The position numbers and the translations under genes are program-made. From contig DULF01000120.1 of NCBI GenBank assembly GCA_012840535.1, forward strand, positions 1 to 41,501: DNA of 41,501 bases, in the 5' to 3' direction. The notes under the pieces were generated by a model. The model did not search any database, was not told where the DNA came from, and saw only the letters and a program-made list of their open reading frames with translations. Source of the DNA: Clostridiaceae bacterium (GTDB taxonomy: Bacteria; Bacillota; Clostridia; Acetivibrionales; DUMB01). Positions within the stretch are counted from its first letter, which is position 1. Every line of letters begins with the position of its first letter. This document shows positions 19,895-33,171 of the stretch, one piece after another.

Positions 19895-19900
19895 GGAAAG

Positions 19901-20000
19901 GGGACACACCTCTTCGAGGAATGTCCCCATACCTTGATCACACACCTCTTTGAGGGGTGTCCCCATACCTTGAACACACACCTTTGCGAGGTATGTCCTT
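19901..20000 (+). repeat. 36-base palindromic tandem repeat, about 2.7 copies
   Basis: CACACC marks successive units at 19905, 19941 and 19977, an exact 36-base period. Each unit has the palindromic layout GGGGACA...CCTC...GAGG...TGTCCCC, so it can fold as a hairpin. The third copy is degenerate (TGTCCTTT). The copies lie directly after truA. A related hairpin stands at 21059-21090. Such GGGGACA-type palindromes resemble non-autonomous repeats common in clostridial genomes. Confidence 0.75.
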
Positions 20001-20019
20001 TAAGAATCTTTAAGAATAT

Positions 20020-20063
20020 AAAAGAACGTTCTTGTACAAAATAAAAAAAAAGGACGTTCTTTT
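20020..20063 (+). terminator. Probable terminator after truA
   Basis: AAAAGAACGTTCTT (20020-20033) pairs with AAGGACGTTCTTTT (20050-20063) through 14 pairs with one G-U. The 3' arm ends in TTTT and is followed by GCTTTT. It sits just before the sigma-54-like gene and may separate it from truA. A direct repeat CTTTAAGAAT precedes it. Confidence 0.55.
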
Positions 20064-20072
20064 GCTTTTAAA

Positions 20073-21053
20073 ATGCAATGTTACATGAATTCTAAAATGG
20101 AGCTGATGGAGAATTATATACCTGCCCCCAGAAAGAGGCAATTAATCAGAATAGTTCAAATGAGCCTGCACGAGCTTTATGATTATGTCACTGAAATGTC
20201 AGCTGAAAATCCCTTGATTAATATTGAATTCAGAAACGGAAAAGCTGACGGCGAAAAAAATAGCGAAAACCCATTAAGAAGGAAGTTAGTTGATGAGAAA
20301 AACAACGTATACTACAATACAGGGGATGTTTATGGTCAAAGCGTAGATACTGGCTTTTCACAATATATTTTTATTGAAAGAAACAATCTGAAAGACTACC
20401 TGCTATTCCAACTGGATATGCTGGATATGAGCCGGCTGGATTATAAGGTCGCAAGACACATAATTGAATTAATAGATGATGACGGATACTTAAATGAAAA
20501 CATTTCTGAGATTTCAAGTTCCTTAAACGTCAGCCGAAGGAAAGCAGAGAATATATTGGCGCTGATCCAGTCTTTTGAGCCGTACTGCGTTGGAGGCAGA
20601 GTTTTTATTCCTGAACAGGTACCTTGTTGTATAATCCCAGACGTTATCGTAGCATGTGTTTCTGATGAGTACAAAGTTTTGCATGACGAGTCTTTGCAAC
20701 CCCAAATTTCCATTAATATACACTTCCTGAAAGAGATCGAAACAACTATTTGTAATTTGCCGGAAGAATATATTATAGATAAGATAGAACAGGCAAGCTG
20801 GCTGGCAAAATGCATTGAGGAAAGAAAAAGGGGGTTGCTGAAAGTTTGCAAAACAATTGTAGACTTGCAGCAGGACTTTTTTAAAAATGGCCCTGAACAT
20901 CTTGCGCCATTGGCATTGGAGGATATATCCAGAAGGCTCTCCATTGCCGAGATCGAAGCAAGCAGGGCAATGAGAAATAAATTTATGTATTGCTCCTGGG
21001 GAATATTTGAGTTTAAGTATTTTTTAAGGGATATAAAATATGCGGACAATTAG
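20073..21053 (+). CDS. Truncated sigma-54 (RpoN)-like protein
   Basis: The 326-residue frame resembles sigma-54. Near residues 21-52 is the activator-interacting region (RQLIRIVQMSLHELYDYV, then SAENPL). A core-binding part follows (LIDDDGYLNENISEISSSLN, LIQSFEP), then the pre-HTH part (IIPDVIVAC, CIEERKRGLLKVCKTIVDLQ, QDFFKNGPEHLAPLALEDIS, WGIFEFKYFL). Two pieces of a normal 430-480 residue RpoN are missing. One is roughly 50 residues between the IQSF and PDVIV segments. The other is the C-terminal DNA-binding end with the RpoN box. It ends five bases before a palindromic repeat. No downstream frame restores the end. The exact start is uncertain (20073, 20085 or 20097) because no strong ribosome site is seen. 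It may be a decaying gene or an RNA-polymerase-binding regulator that cannot recognise -24/-12 promoters. Confidence 0.7.
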   Translation: MQCYMNSKMELMENYIPAPRKRQLIRIVQMSLHELYDYVTEMSAENPLINIEFRNGKADGEKNSENPLRRKLVDEKNNVYYNTGDVYGQSVDTGFSQYIFIERNNLKDYLLFQLDMLDMSRLDYKVARHIIELIDDDGYLNENISEISSSLNVSRRKAENILALIQSFEPYCVGGRVFIPEQVPCCIIPDVIVACVSDEYKVLHDESLQPQISINIHFLKEIETTICNLPEEYIIDKIEQASWLAKCIEERKRGLLKVCKTIVDLQQDFFKNGPEHLAPLALEDISRRLSIAEIEASRAMRNKFMYCSWGIFEFKYFLRDIKYADN

Positions 21054-21058
21054 ATTAT

Positions 21059-21090
21059 GGAGACACTCCTTGTAAAAAAGGAATGTCCCC
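21059..21090 (+). repeat. GGGGACA-type palindrome after the sigma-54-like gene
   Basis: GGAGACA-C-TCCTT pairs with AAGGA-A-TGTCCCC around a GTAAAA loop (one A-C mismatch in the outer arm). Layout and sequence match the units at 19901-20000. A further weak copy (GGAATATTTCC and TATGTCCCT) follows to about 21129. Together the copies bracket the sigma-54-like gene. Confidence 0.65.
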
Positions 21091-21135
21091 AAAAGATTAC
21101 GAAGGAATATTTCCTAAAGATTATGTCCCTAATGG

Positions 21136-22374
21136 CTAAAAGCATTCGTAAAATACCTTGCTTAACGCATATTTTGAAGGCTTTTCTTCTTCCCTGTTGA
21201 TCCATTTTCCATTTGTGAAATCAGGGAATGCAACAGGGATGCTTCCCATAGCTATTGATTCCTCGGAAAGGCATGTTACTGTCATCCATGTTGCGGCGTC
21301 ATATACATCAATCGGTGGAGGTGTATTATTTTTAACGCTTTCCACAAACGCACGGAGCACAAGGAAATCCATACCTCCGTGTCCACCCTGTACTCCTGTT
21401 TTCCGGAATTCAACCCACAGTGGATGCTCATACTTTTCCAGGTAATTCTCAAAGGGTTCCCAGGTTTCATAAGGAGAGATCCCCTCTATGTATACTGCGC
21501 TTTTATCTTCCATCCATATGCCCTTTGTCCCCTGAACCCTTCCACCTCTTGAGTAAACTCTCGGCAGGGTTGTGTCATGGATAAGAAGTATTGTTTCACC
21601 ATGAGCGCATTTTATCATGGTAGTAACTATATCTCCCTGTGTAAATTCAATTTTTGCATGCTCATGTTCTGGGCCTTTGTTTCTTATTATCCATTCACGC
21701 AGACCTCTTGCTTTTGAAGCCATTGAAGTTAGCGTAAGAAATCTGTTCCCTCTGTTTATATCAAGATATTTTGCAATTGGCCCTAATTCATGGGTGGGAT
21801 AGACTTCACCGTTACGATGCTGGTAGTTTCTGAAGCGGTAGTGCCGGTTTTCAAGCCCCATGGCAATTTCGCTGCGTAAATCATGCTGATATCCGCCCTG
21901 ACAGTGTATTATTTCACCGAACAAACCTTGCTTGACCATATTCAGAACAGTCAATTCTTCTCTGCCATAGCAGCAGTTTTCAAGCATCATGAATTCAACG
22001 CCGGTCTCTTCTTTCACCTTTACCAGATCCCAGCATTCCTGAATGGAGTATGCGCCGCCTACTTCCATACCAACCGGCTTTCCGGCCTTCATTGAAGCTA
22101 TTGCAATGTTTATGTGGGCTGACCATGCAGTTGATATAATAACGCAGTCAACATCTTTTCTTTGCACAACTTCCCTGTAATCTTTGCAACATGAAGGCTT
22201 GTAGCCGCATTTTTCAAGAATGGCATTCGAAGCATTTTCCATTCTGTCTTCATATAAATCACATACGACAGTTACTCTTACATCATCCATGTTGTTAAGG
22301 CAATCTATAAGACCAAGGCCTCTCTGGCTGACACCTATTACCGCTACATTTATGATTTTGCTTTCTTTGACCAT
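21136..22374 (-). CDS. Gfo/Idh/MocA-family protein, GH109-like
   Basis: The 412-residue protein has an N-terminal NAD-binding fold (INVAVIGVSQRGLGLIDCLN) and a C-terminal Gfo/Idh/MocA domain. The motifs MLENCCYGREELTVLNMVKQ, YPTHELGPIAKYLDINRGNR and GDIVTTMIKCAHGETILLIH resemble glycoside hydrolase family 109, NAD-dependent alpha-N-acetylgalactosaminidases that act by an oxidation-elimination route. No signal peptide is seen, so it would act in the cytoplasm on imported glycosides. ATG (CAT at 22372-22374) is preceded by AAAGGAACGGTGA; an upstream TTG adds 20 residues without a ribosome site. It is divergent from an AraC gene that probably controls it. Substrate is inferred only. Confidence 0.8.
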   Translation of the reverse strand: MVKESKIINVAVIGVSQRGLGLIDCLNNMDDVRVTVVCDLYEDRMENASNAILEKCGYKPSCCKDYREVVQRKDVDCVIISTAWSAHINIAIASMKAGKPVGMEVGGAYSIQECWDLVKVKEETGVEFMMLENCCYGREELTVLNMVKQGLFGEIIHCQGGYQHDLRSEIAMGLENRHYRFRNYQHRNGEVYPTHELGPIAKYLDINRGNRFLTLTSMASKARGLREWIIRNKGPEHEHAKIEFTQGDIVTTMIKCAHGETILLIHDTTLPRVYSRGGRVQGTKGIWMEDKSAVYIEGISPYETWEPFENYLEKYEHPLWVEFRKTGVQGGHGGMDFLVLRAFVESVKNNTPPPIDVYDAATWMTVTCLSEESIAMGSIPVAFPDFTNGKWINREEEKPSKYALSKVFYECF

Positions 22375-22416
22375 GTTTTCACCGTTCCTTTTATGTATTT
22401 TATAGATTTTTGTGAC

Positions 22417-22563
22417 TGTAATATTTTGTTGCAAGCAATTTATATCTTTATCATGACCTAAAAACGCAGCAATAAAATTTTTGCTTTTATTATCTTTATT
22501 TTAGTGTTATTATTATAGCGTTGAACATGAAAAATATAGTCAAATGTATGTAATATTTTGCTG
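22417..22563 (+). promoter_or_regulatory. Repeated TGTAATATTTTGYTG in the divergent spacer
   Basis: TGTAATATTTTGTTG (22417-22431) recurs as TGTAATATTTTGCTG (22549-22563), 132 bases apart, in the same orientation. One copy lies near each gene start in the 222-base region between the GH109-like gene and the AraC gene. Paired direct sites are typical AraC-family operators. A minus-strand TATAAT (ATTATA at 22512-22517) lies between them, with TTGACT 20 bases upstream of it (22538-22543), a poor spacing. Confidence 0.45.
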
Positions 22564-22596
22564 TGCGTTAACACTATAAGAAAGGATGAACCTGAT

Positions 22597-23472
22597 ATGC
22601 AGGCATATAGCGGTATTATTTGCGATATGGATACTTATTTGGGACATGAAGATTTATCCAGGCCTTTGTTTATAAATAGCTGTGGATATTTTAACCTGGA
22701 TGGATTTGATACATCTTTGACCAGGTGCAGGAAAGACTTTTATTTAATATATCTGATAAACGGCATTGGGCATTATAAGCTGGGACAACATGTTATTGAG
22801 GTAGATGCAGGCAATATTGTTATCTTTAAGCCTGGTGAAAAGCAGGAGTATTACTACTTAGGAGAGGAAAAAGCCGAGGCTTACTGGATTCACTTTACCG
22901 GATATGAGGCCGGAAACTTGCTGGACAGTTTATCGCTTTCAGATAGGAATATTTATAAAACAGGTGTTGATTCCGAATGTATAAATATTTTTGAATCAAT
23001 AATACATGAAATACAAATAAGGAAGCCTTGTTTTCATCAATTATGTGTCGGATATTTAATTCAACTCTTGTCTTTATTTTCCCGCAAGGCTGTTTTTCTT
23101 GAAAAAGGAGAGGGAATATTTAAAAACAACAAAATCGAAAATGTTATAAAGGTCATGAACGAGAATTACCAACAGCAGCGCGAAATTGATTACTACGCGA
23201 AGATGTGCAATTTGAGCGTTTATCAATTTATTCGAAATTTTAAGAAAGTTACGCACCTTTCTCCTGCCAGGTATATTGAAAAAATAAGAATCAATAAAGC
23301 CAAGGAATTATTGGCTGACACAAACCTGACAGTAAATGAAATATCAGGCTTAGTCGGTTATAGCGATGCTTTTTATTTCAGCAAGGTATTTAAGAAAGTC
23401 ACAAATTTTTCGCCTGCTGCATTCAGGGCATCTATAAGACAAGGTATTCAGAATTGCTTTATTGACAAATAG
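22597..23472 (+). CDS. AraC-family transcriptional regulator
   Basis: The 291-residue protein has an N-terminal cupin-like sensing domain (YLINGIGHYKLGQHVIEVDA, NIVIFKPGEKQEYYYLGEE) and a C-terminal pair of helix-turn-helix motifs (YAKMCNLSVYQFIRNFKKVT and TVNEISGLVGYSDAFYFSKV). The layout is that of sugar-responsive AraC regulators. The start ATG 22597 follows AAAGGATGAA; a TTG at 22558 is possible. Its divergence from the GH109-like gene and the duplicated site between them suggest it activates that gene in response to a sugar. Confidence 0.88.
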   Translation: MQAYSGIICDMDTYLGHEDLSRPLFINSCGYFNLDGFDTSLTRCRKDFYLIYLINGIGHYKLGQHVIEVDAGNIVIFKPGEKQEYYYLGEEKAEAYWIHFTGYEAGNLLDSLSLSDRNIYKTGVDSECINIFESIIHEIQIRKPCFHQLCVGYLIQLLSLFSRKAVFLEKGEGIFKNNKIENVIKVMNENYQQQREIDYYAKMCNLSVYQFIRNFKKVTHLSPARYIEKIRINKAKELLADTNLTVNEISGLVGYSDAFYFSKVFKKVTNFSPAAFRASIRQGIQNCFIDK

Positions 23473-23517
23473 ATTGACAAATAAATATATAAGTAAAACA
23501 AATATCAATTAGAAGCA

Positions 23518-23542
23518 TCCGCCTAAAAAATGAAATGGCGGA
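23518..23542 (+). terminator. Hairpin after the AraC gene
   Basis: TCCGCC (23518-23523) pairs with GGCGGA (23537-23542) around an A-rich loop, 45 bases after the AraC stop. There is no T run, so termination here is uncertain. Around it lie AT-rich DNA and a 12-base tandem duplication (ATTGACAAATA at 23461 and 23473) across the AraC stop. Confidence 0.35.
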
Positions 23543-23623
23543 CGATTATACTGGAGATATTAAAAATATATTGCTAAAAAAATGAGCTACCAGGCGATAA
23601 ATTAAAATTATAGCAAATTATAC

Positions 23624-23653
23624 TTGACACGCGGCGTCCTCCTGTATTACAAT
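23624..23653 (+). promoter_or_regulatory. Promoter for rplM-rpsI
   Basis: TTGACA (23624-23629), 18 bases, TACAAT (23648-23653). Transcription would start near 23660 and leave a leader of about 95 bases before rplM. An L13 autoregulatory leader is known upstream of rplM in Firmicutes; this leader (23660-23745) has possible CTGTTT/TTTGCTG and GCGG/GCAG segments but I cannot draw a convincing fold by eye. Confidence 0.7.
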
Positions 23654-23755
23654 ATTACAGTGCCAAAAAGCTGTTTAATCAGAAATTTGCTGAAAAGTTA
23701 TGGTAATTGTTATTATAAATGCGGAAAGCAGTAGTTCAAGGAGGTTATTTATTCG

Positions 23756-32892: not shown

Positions 32893-33171
32893 TTATTTGC
32901 TGTTCACCTTGTCTTTTAACCCTTTACCTGCTTTAAATACGGGAGCATTTGATGCGGGTATGGTTATTTCTTCTTTAGTCTGAGGATTTCTTCCTTTCCT
33001 GGCGGCTCTCTTTCTTACTTCAAATGTTCCAAAACCAACGAGAACAACCTTTTCGCCTTTCTGGAGAGATTCCTCTACTGATTCAATGAAAGCGTTGAGA
33101 GCAGCTTCACTATTTTTTTTGTTTAAACCTGATTTAGCAGCAATGGAATTTACTAATTCAGTTTTATTCAT
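32893..33171 (-). CDS. hup: HU-type DNA-binding protein
   Basis: The 92-residue protein begins MNKTELVNSIAAKSGLNKKN and has the signature GFGTFEVRKRAARKGRNPQT followed by the DNA arm TKEEITIPASNAPVFKAGKG. HU bends DNA and compacts the nucleoid. The start at 33171 is preceded on the minus strand by ATAGGAGGTAGTG. A good promoter lies upstream (33207-33235). It is a single-gene unit. Confidence 0.95.
   Translation of the reverse strand: MNKTELVNSIAAKSGLNKKNSEAALNAFIESVEESLQKGEKVVLVGFGTFEVRKRAARKGRNPQTKEEITIPASNAPVFKAGKGLKDKVNSK

Follow-up and report, generated by a model that had tools for sequence, protein, structure and literature searches.

The sigma-54-like gene of the window, by which is meant the whole 41,501-nt stretch of clostridial DNA analysed here, is best explained as a relocated and eroded relic of a SigL-type gene, while a separate family of sigma-54 genes in the same order, also without the RpoN box, is best explained as encoding DNA-blind binders of RNA polymerase. 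This joint account is given a probability of about 0.58. The features on which it draws are collected in Table 1.

Table 1. Features of the window and of comparison loci (positions are those of the window unless a locus is named)
Feature	Position	Strand	Basis
Sigma-54-like ORF, SigL type, without RpoN box, 326 aa	20073..21053	+	Pfam, NCBIfam, trees
Region I / activator-interacting domain remnant, residues 22-50	20136..20222	+	Pfam, identity comparison
Core-binding domain (CBD), N-terminal part, residues 102-175	20376..20597	+	Pfam; AF2 helices
Junction of in-frame deletion (~66 residues, C-terminal CBD part), residues 173-175	20589..20597	+	alignments
Extra-long helix, residues 231-265, with R251 (E. 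coli R336 equivalent)	20763..20867	+	AF2, alignments
HTH, recognition motif HESTVSR changed to AEIEASR	20916..20972	+	alignment, AF2
CSWGIFEFKYF motif, final conserved element ahead of truncation	20991..21023	+	alignment
Stop codon TAG, no RpoN box downstream	21051..21053	+	sequence, profile search
Inserted block (sigma-54, oxidoreductase, AraC-type regulator), truA to rplM	19895..23755	.	comparison with relatives
Three tandem 36-nt units, GGGGACA...TGTCCCC dyad, upstream of gene	19900..20011	+	repeat search
Fourth dyad copy, directly downstream of stop	21059..21090	+	repeat search
Syntenic box-less sigma-54 genes (examples among others)	L054:8357-9466, L069:7992-9158, L047:8601-9770
GGTTATATAATACTATATAACC dyad	L081:7930-7993, L069:7931-7994, L085:413-476

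The frame that a first-pass annotation had read as sigma-54-like was confirmed, and its product matches three Pfam sigma-54 domains: Sigma54_AID over residues 22-50 (E 1e-5; 25.7 bits, barely over the cut-off of 23.8), Sigma54_CBD over residues 102-176 (E 6e-22; the best stretch, profile positions 8-82 of 185, leaves this domain incomplete) and Sigma54_DBD over residues 232-318 (E 6e-23; profile positions 2-88 of 160). The NCBIfam model rpoN_sigma reaches an E-value of 5e-58, under its own cut-off (197 against 277 bits). Judged from these E-values, homology to sigma-54 is far beyond chance. A remnant of the activator-interacting start and part of the core-binding region are retained and the RpoN-box end is absent, much as had been described, with a palindromic repeat beginning five bases past the stop. 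The internal loss noticed at the same time is in frame, and it is larger than the roughly 50 residues then proposed, since the alignment gap spans 67 columns, or about 66-67 residues; a deletion would stay in frame by chance in one case in three. No RpoN-box-like sequence occurs in the three forward frames of the 900 nt downstream, and a frameshift is therefore not supported as the cause of the missing box.

The remaining parts differ in their state of preservation. Region I has a mean identity of only 0.27-0.30 to other sigma-54 proteins (0.45-0.68 within groups), and in the extra-long helix and end motif the window protein resembles other sigma-54 proteins as closely as they resemble one another. 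The AF2 model has a mean pLDDT of 77.7, with the extra-long helix and the blocks of the N-terminal CBD part (CBD-N; helices at residues 106-115, 121-132, 144-150, and 155-166) above 85; it matches sigma-54 chains (Foldseek E 7e-16), and solved sigma-54 structures are its best PDB matches. HEST[VI]SR, the HTH motif in contact with the -12 element, is found with small variants in all 12 SigL-type reference sequences; the window protein keeps the E and the R and has changed the H, S and T. The equivalents of R383 (R298) and R336 (R251), given like all such residues in E. coli numbering by way of the alignment, are both present. The retained HTH fold and the R383 equivalent would suit a sigma-54 that works by a -12-type contact alone, or with an RpoN box contributed by another protein, but the HEST motif is gone, the genome has neither a separate RpoN-box match nor an activator, and box-less genes have no box downstream, which makes such a protein highly improbable.

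The gene also stands in an unusual place. The window order is truA, the sigma-54 gene, an oxidoreductase, an AraC-type regulator, rplM and rpsI (names other than that of sigma-54 were assigned by eye). Among ten relatives searched, truA was located in nine (G011 gave no truA match), and in eight of these nine rplM and rpsI follow directly behind the best truA match, with no sigma-54 gene; in the ninth, G031, rplM did not lie within the 1.5 kb examined. This direct adjacency in the relatives indicates that truA and rplM were separated here by the insertion of a block of nearly 4 kb. An intact full-length orthologue at the same locus, suggested earlier as a sign of recent truncation, was accordingly not encountered among the truA-positive relatives, and no relative was seen to carry the window gene. 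Repeats of the form GGGGACA...TGTCCCC bracket the gene, the sole further near match in the window lying at 33063 with two mismatches. In the source genome (G000) the ancestral sigma-54 place is itself intact, in the order ZnR-RACo-ZnR-MTHFS-CPBP...C12-serine recombinase-lipid kinase, with no sigma-54 gene between MTHFS/CPBP and the serine recombinase. Two features of that old place are recorded here in their own right: dyad repeats of the GGGGACA type (L147:9466-9880), and a gene for a short membrane protein that by eye resembles a TM2-domain protein (L147:8910-9410).

The source genome is a draft of 3.19 Mb in 240 contigs, 96.7% complete. A full rpoN and enhancer-binding activators, which the first-pass annotation proposed to look for elsewhere in the genome, were both sought in this draft and neither was found: the two other DBD matches span 26 and 40 positions and lie near the threshold, and no GAFTGA activator is present, the best PF00158 match being partial (profile positions 19-122) at 45 bits, against 175-259 bits for the true activators of relatives. 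With no other sigma-54 and only weak, partial PF00158 matches, sigma-54-dependent transcription is very probably absent from this organism. The further proposal that the protein competes with a true sigma-54 is consequently excluded as far as the draft shows. An artefact of assembly or binning might be suspected in a 240-contig draft; it is scarcely credible for a gene flanked on both sides by conserved ribosomal genes within a contig of 41.5 kb, and the box-less family described below recurs in the single-contig genome G003, in the cultivated L069 and in many independent assemblies.

Two lineages of sigma-54 exist in the order, one housed in a conserved syntenic block and the other of SigL type, the latter sharing a contig with an activator in several genomes. 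A tree of 91 sequences places the window protein within a 41-taxon SigL clade (UFBoot 100). AU tests speak against grouping it with the box-less core of the syntenic family (p 0.0009) and, less strongly, against placing it anywhere inside the syntenic clade (p 0.041). The evidence for SigL-type ancestry is good but not absolute, because the branch of the window protein is very long (1.35-1.40 substitutions per site). Orthology with the syntenic box-less family, considered as a candidate, is rejected on trees, AU test and synteny. What the window gene shares with that family is a C-terminus ending just past the WGxFExxYFF motif and no box downstream.

Whether the window gene is a relic or a working gene turns on how much of it has survived. 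Under simulated neutral drift its frame remains free of stops with a probability of 0.09 at 0.05 substitutions per site and of 0.008 at 0.1. Measured against 26 other sigma-54 proteins, it keeps 19 of 22 columns conserved at 95% or more and 23 of 35 conserved at 80-95%; the corresponding values are 27 of 30 and 29 of 36 for L069, a maintained member of the box-less family, and 26-27 of 27-28 and 40-46 of 47-49 for the complete SigL types shown. The open frame, set beside the drift simulation, and the 19 retained near-invariant residues argue that any relaxation of selection is recent, so that selection probably acted on the gene through most of its history, and the gene is most likely a relic on which constraint has relaxed only recently. 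An old pseudogene, drifting without constraint since the loss of activators, would explain the relocation, the missing parts and the absent Shine-Dalgarno sequence, but neutral drift breaks a frame quickly and the divergence of the protein far exceeds what the probability of staying stop-free would allow; this is very unlikely.

A stronger competitor is a protein that still functions as a DNA-blind RNA-polymerase binder, having converged on the maintained family after the syntenic copy was lost. The 326 open codons with their near-invariant columns, the R336 equivalent, the extra-long helix, the in-frame deletion, the match of the AF2 model to sigma-54 chains and the disappearance of the syntenic copy from the genome are in its favour, and the intact frame and the similarity of helix and motif fit a working protein as well as they fit a recent relic. 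Against it stand the loss of about 66 CBD residues, the diverged region I, the absent Shine-Dalgarno sequence, the occurrence in one genome only, and the relocation into a repeat-bracketed site; a functional window protein is therefore regarded as unlikely. Both alternatives raised by the first-pass annotation, a pseudogene and a polymerase-holding factor lacking DNA recognition, thereby survive in part. The first, in the form of a recent relic, is judged more likely for the window gene, which is relocated, has lost half of the CBD, has no Shine-Dalgarno sequence upstream and appears in no relative; the second is suggested for the separate family of the order. In the relic account, the window lineage has no sigma-54 activators left, making sigma-54 promoter opening no longer possible there. 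The window protein has shed the C-terminal CBD half, the RpoN box and part of the HTH recognition motif, and it retains the N-terminal CBD half, the extra-long helix and the WGIFEFKYF motif. The resulting protein would be unable to direct transcription from -24/-12 promoters and, if translated, would at most touch RNA polymerase with nothing to address it to DNA. We infer that this copy is dead or dying, and it is possibly a residual polymerase binder.

The family to which the second alternative applies was delimited in a survey of 58 genomes of the order, with the extent of the DBD profile match as criterion. The match reaches the profile end in 19 genomes, ends at positions 89-117 in 17 (G017 has both kinds), and is missing or merely short and marginal in 23. 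The 17 proteins without an RpoN box end 0-12 residues past the WGxFExxYFF motif, and 16 of their genes, the window gene being the exception, lie in the syntenic block between the MTHFS/CPBP and serine recombinase genes; 14 of them form a core set. The box-less genes of G012 and G057 are nested beside complete genes (support 97-100), and on this placement their truncations are clearly recent. The core may represent one loss or several: the AU test is compatible with its monophyly without supporting it (p 0.13), and several losses are possible because the complete genes of G019, G021 and G008, with HTH already altered, fall among its members.

Outside the order, box-less sigma-54 genes were found in 3 of 243 evenly drawn genomes of the class (G069, G060, and G153), that of G069 in the same syntenic block and that of G153 retaining part of the linker; in G085, whose genome has an activator, an incomplete match runs into the contig end. 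Among the best 80 of 145 relatives at named loci, 14 are box-less, comprising 13 in the order, including that of Anaerobacterium chartisolvens DSM 27016 (L069), and L144. The RpoN box has by this count been lost separately at least five times in Clostridia (core, G012, G057, L144 and the window gene), and G060/G153, which lie outside the tree sampling, may represent a sixth loss. A search of the 900 nt downstream of 21 box-less genes (18 + 3) found no RpoN box, two complete genes serving as controls with E-values of 2e-31 and 2e-25. A split gene with the box encoded apart was rejected, since the order survey gave no match to a free-standing box and none lay downstream. Among the matches listed, phages and plasmids contributed only distant sigma-54 relatives of less than 60% identity, and every plasmid record fell short of 80% coverage of the window query.

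The distribution of activators follows that of the complete gene. PF00158 matches reaching 175 bits or more occur in 16 of the 19 genomes that carry a complete gene and in none of the 16 with a box-less gene only (Fisher p 3e-7, uncorrected for phylogeny); in 12 of the 16 activator-positive genomes the GAFTGA sequence itself was read. The three genomes with a complete gene and no full activator are G048, G021, and G019, the last with a fragment on a short contig. PF00158 matches of 142 and 134 bits occur in G026 and G012, in proteins that do not show GAFTGA, and no activator was found in G060, G069, or G153. The genomes of the box-less family are thus without a GAFTGA activator, excepting one with a second, complete rpoN. 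As separate observations, the drafts G030 and G016 have activators and no sigma-54 that was found; G030 holds at least nine strong activator domains and only a short marginal sigma-54 match, and its assembly may lack rpoN. Some genomes that have either a box-less sigma-54 or none encode PF00158 proteins, about 590 aa long, in which the GAFTGA loop is absent (L148, L149, and L150, from G026, G012, and G009).

The box-less family is clearly under purifying selection, with a dN/dS of about 0.1. By the NG86 method, applied here at high dS and undefined for 2 of 10 pairs, dN/dS is 0.083-0.110 in six pairs from one core genus (G020, G038, G044, and G047); four pairs with G006 are saturated and give 0.084, 0.179 and two undefined values. 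In the closest pair (dS 0.83) the box-less gene stands at 0.083 against 0.188, 0.172, 0.177, and 0.148 for neighbouring genes, and YN00 gives 0.09-0.17 in the six pairs that converged. Between G060 and G153, values are lowest in the CBD (0.058) and extra-long helix (0.057) and higher in the HTH/end (0.164) and the N-terminal part (0.395). A comparison of the 14 core proteins with 11 complete syntenic orthologues places the mean identity of the core above that of the complete proteins in region I (0.68 vs. 0.62), CBD-N (0.54 vs. 0.53) and CBD-C (0.52 vs. 0.47), and below it in the extra-long helix (0.47 vs. 0.54) and HTH (0.41 vs. 0.53). At single residues, all 23 sequences inspected carry the R336 equivalent, and the T380 and R383 equivalents occur in 0 and 3 of the 14 core proteins, compared with 8 and 9 of the 11 complete syntenic proteins and all 12 SigL-type sequences. 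Within the core genus the altered HTH and end are nonetheless conserved (dN/dS 0.016-0.081), which argues against simple decay and suggests that the altered HTH may have a new role there.

Structural work on sigma-54 gives this pattern a mechanistic meaning. R383 and E378 crosslink to promoter DNA (PMC5505868), while region I and the extra-long helix, with R336 at their contact, block the DNA path, and the CBD blocks RNA exit (PMC7057263), according to the parts of these papers cited here. Read against these roles, the residue conservation of the family points to lost DNA contacts and a retained polymerase lock. Its members are probably maintained, DNA-blind sigma-54 derivatives predicted to bind core RNA polymerase while keeping the built-in inhibitory lock of region I on the extra-long helix; nothing apparently able to open that lock, and no activator, was found in the box-less genomes. 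If region I, CBD and the R336 lock are what selection preserves, core polymerase would be held closed and thereby inhibited. Region I could, for its part, be kept for another reason. A broader version, in which Clostridia repeatedly made a polymerase brake out of sigma-54 after losing their activators and the window protein is a convergent, further shortened example, is put forward tentatively and is rather doubtful.

Comparison with known systems sets the clostridial proteins apart. With SigL/RpoN of Bacillota and Proteobacteria, including E. coli RpoN, they share region I, which in the window protein is a diverged remnant, CBD-N, the extra-long helix, the HTH fold and a WGIFEFKYF-type motif. 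The window copy and the family differ from it in the missing RpoN box, in altered HTH recognition residues and in a genome without an activator, and in the window copy the C-terminal CBD half is gone as well. Anti-sigma and appropriator proteins bind RNA polymerase and block initiation without DNA specificity. Occupation of core polymerase is the mode that the family is proposed to share with them, but the clostridial blocker would be a former sigma factor with its own inhibitory region. The nearest parallel comes from Neisseria, where the RLS of N. gonorrhoeae and atypical sigma-N alleles of N. meningitidis are described as non-functional (PMC6755734; PMC12316311) and where, in the cited part of one report, no GAFTGA activators are reported for N. 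meningitidis, the sigma-N protein was undetected there and an rpoN deletion left pilE expression unaffected (PMC6755734). As far as those parts go, a shortened rpoN without DNA-binding parts and an absent GAFTGA activator are common to both groups. The Neisseria losses, however, arise by frameshift, stop or deletion within species and hit the HTH, most meningococcal alleles retaining the RpoN box, whereas the clostridial cut falls past the HTH/WGIFELKYFF domain, is old, extends over several families and is accompanied by purifying selection.

Searches of the open-licence PMC literature, including that on A. chartisolvens, turned up no description of a box-less sigma-54 that is maintained in Clostridia, and the cited part of a 2019 study of the Clostridiales sigma-54 regulon (PMC6615313) does not mention such a form. 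If the proposed account of the family is correct, region I, named for the activator, and the CBD would act on RNA polymerase in their own right, as would follow from the loss of box and activators while region I is among the best conserved parts. Sigma-54 is otherwise taken to be meaningless without the RpoN box and AAA+ activators. The family would also offer biochemistry a natural minimal polymerase inhibitor. For annotation, calling rpoN from the CBD or AID alone is misleading, since several such genomes would count as sigma-54 positive in which no sigma-54 transcription is possible.

The region upstream of the syntenic genes holds a further conserved element. The TATATAATATA dyad was considered as a hairpin or operator specific to box-less genes and rejected in that role: it is conserved but also precedes the complete gene of G023, which implies that the motif predates the truncation. 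It is nearly gene-specific in the five-genome genus, and RNAalifold predicted no consensus pairs for its region. A conserved dyad, GGTTATATAATACTATATAACC, lies directly ahead of the Shine-Dalgarno sequence of syntenic sigma-54 genes and is nearly gene-specific in one genus; its TATAAT is invariant in 15 aligned sequences, and its arms reach up to 20 pairs in L069.
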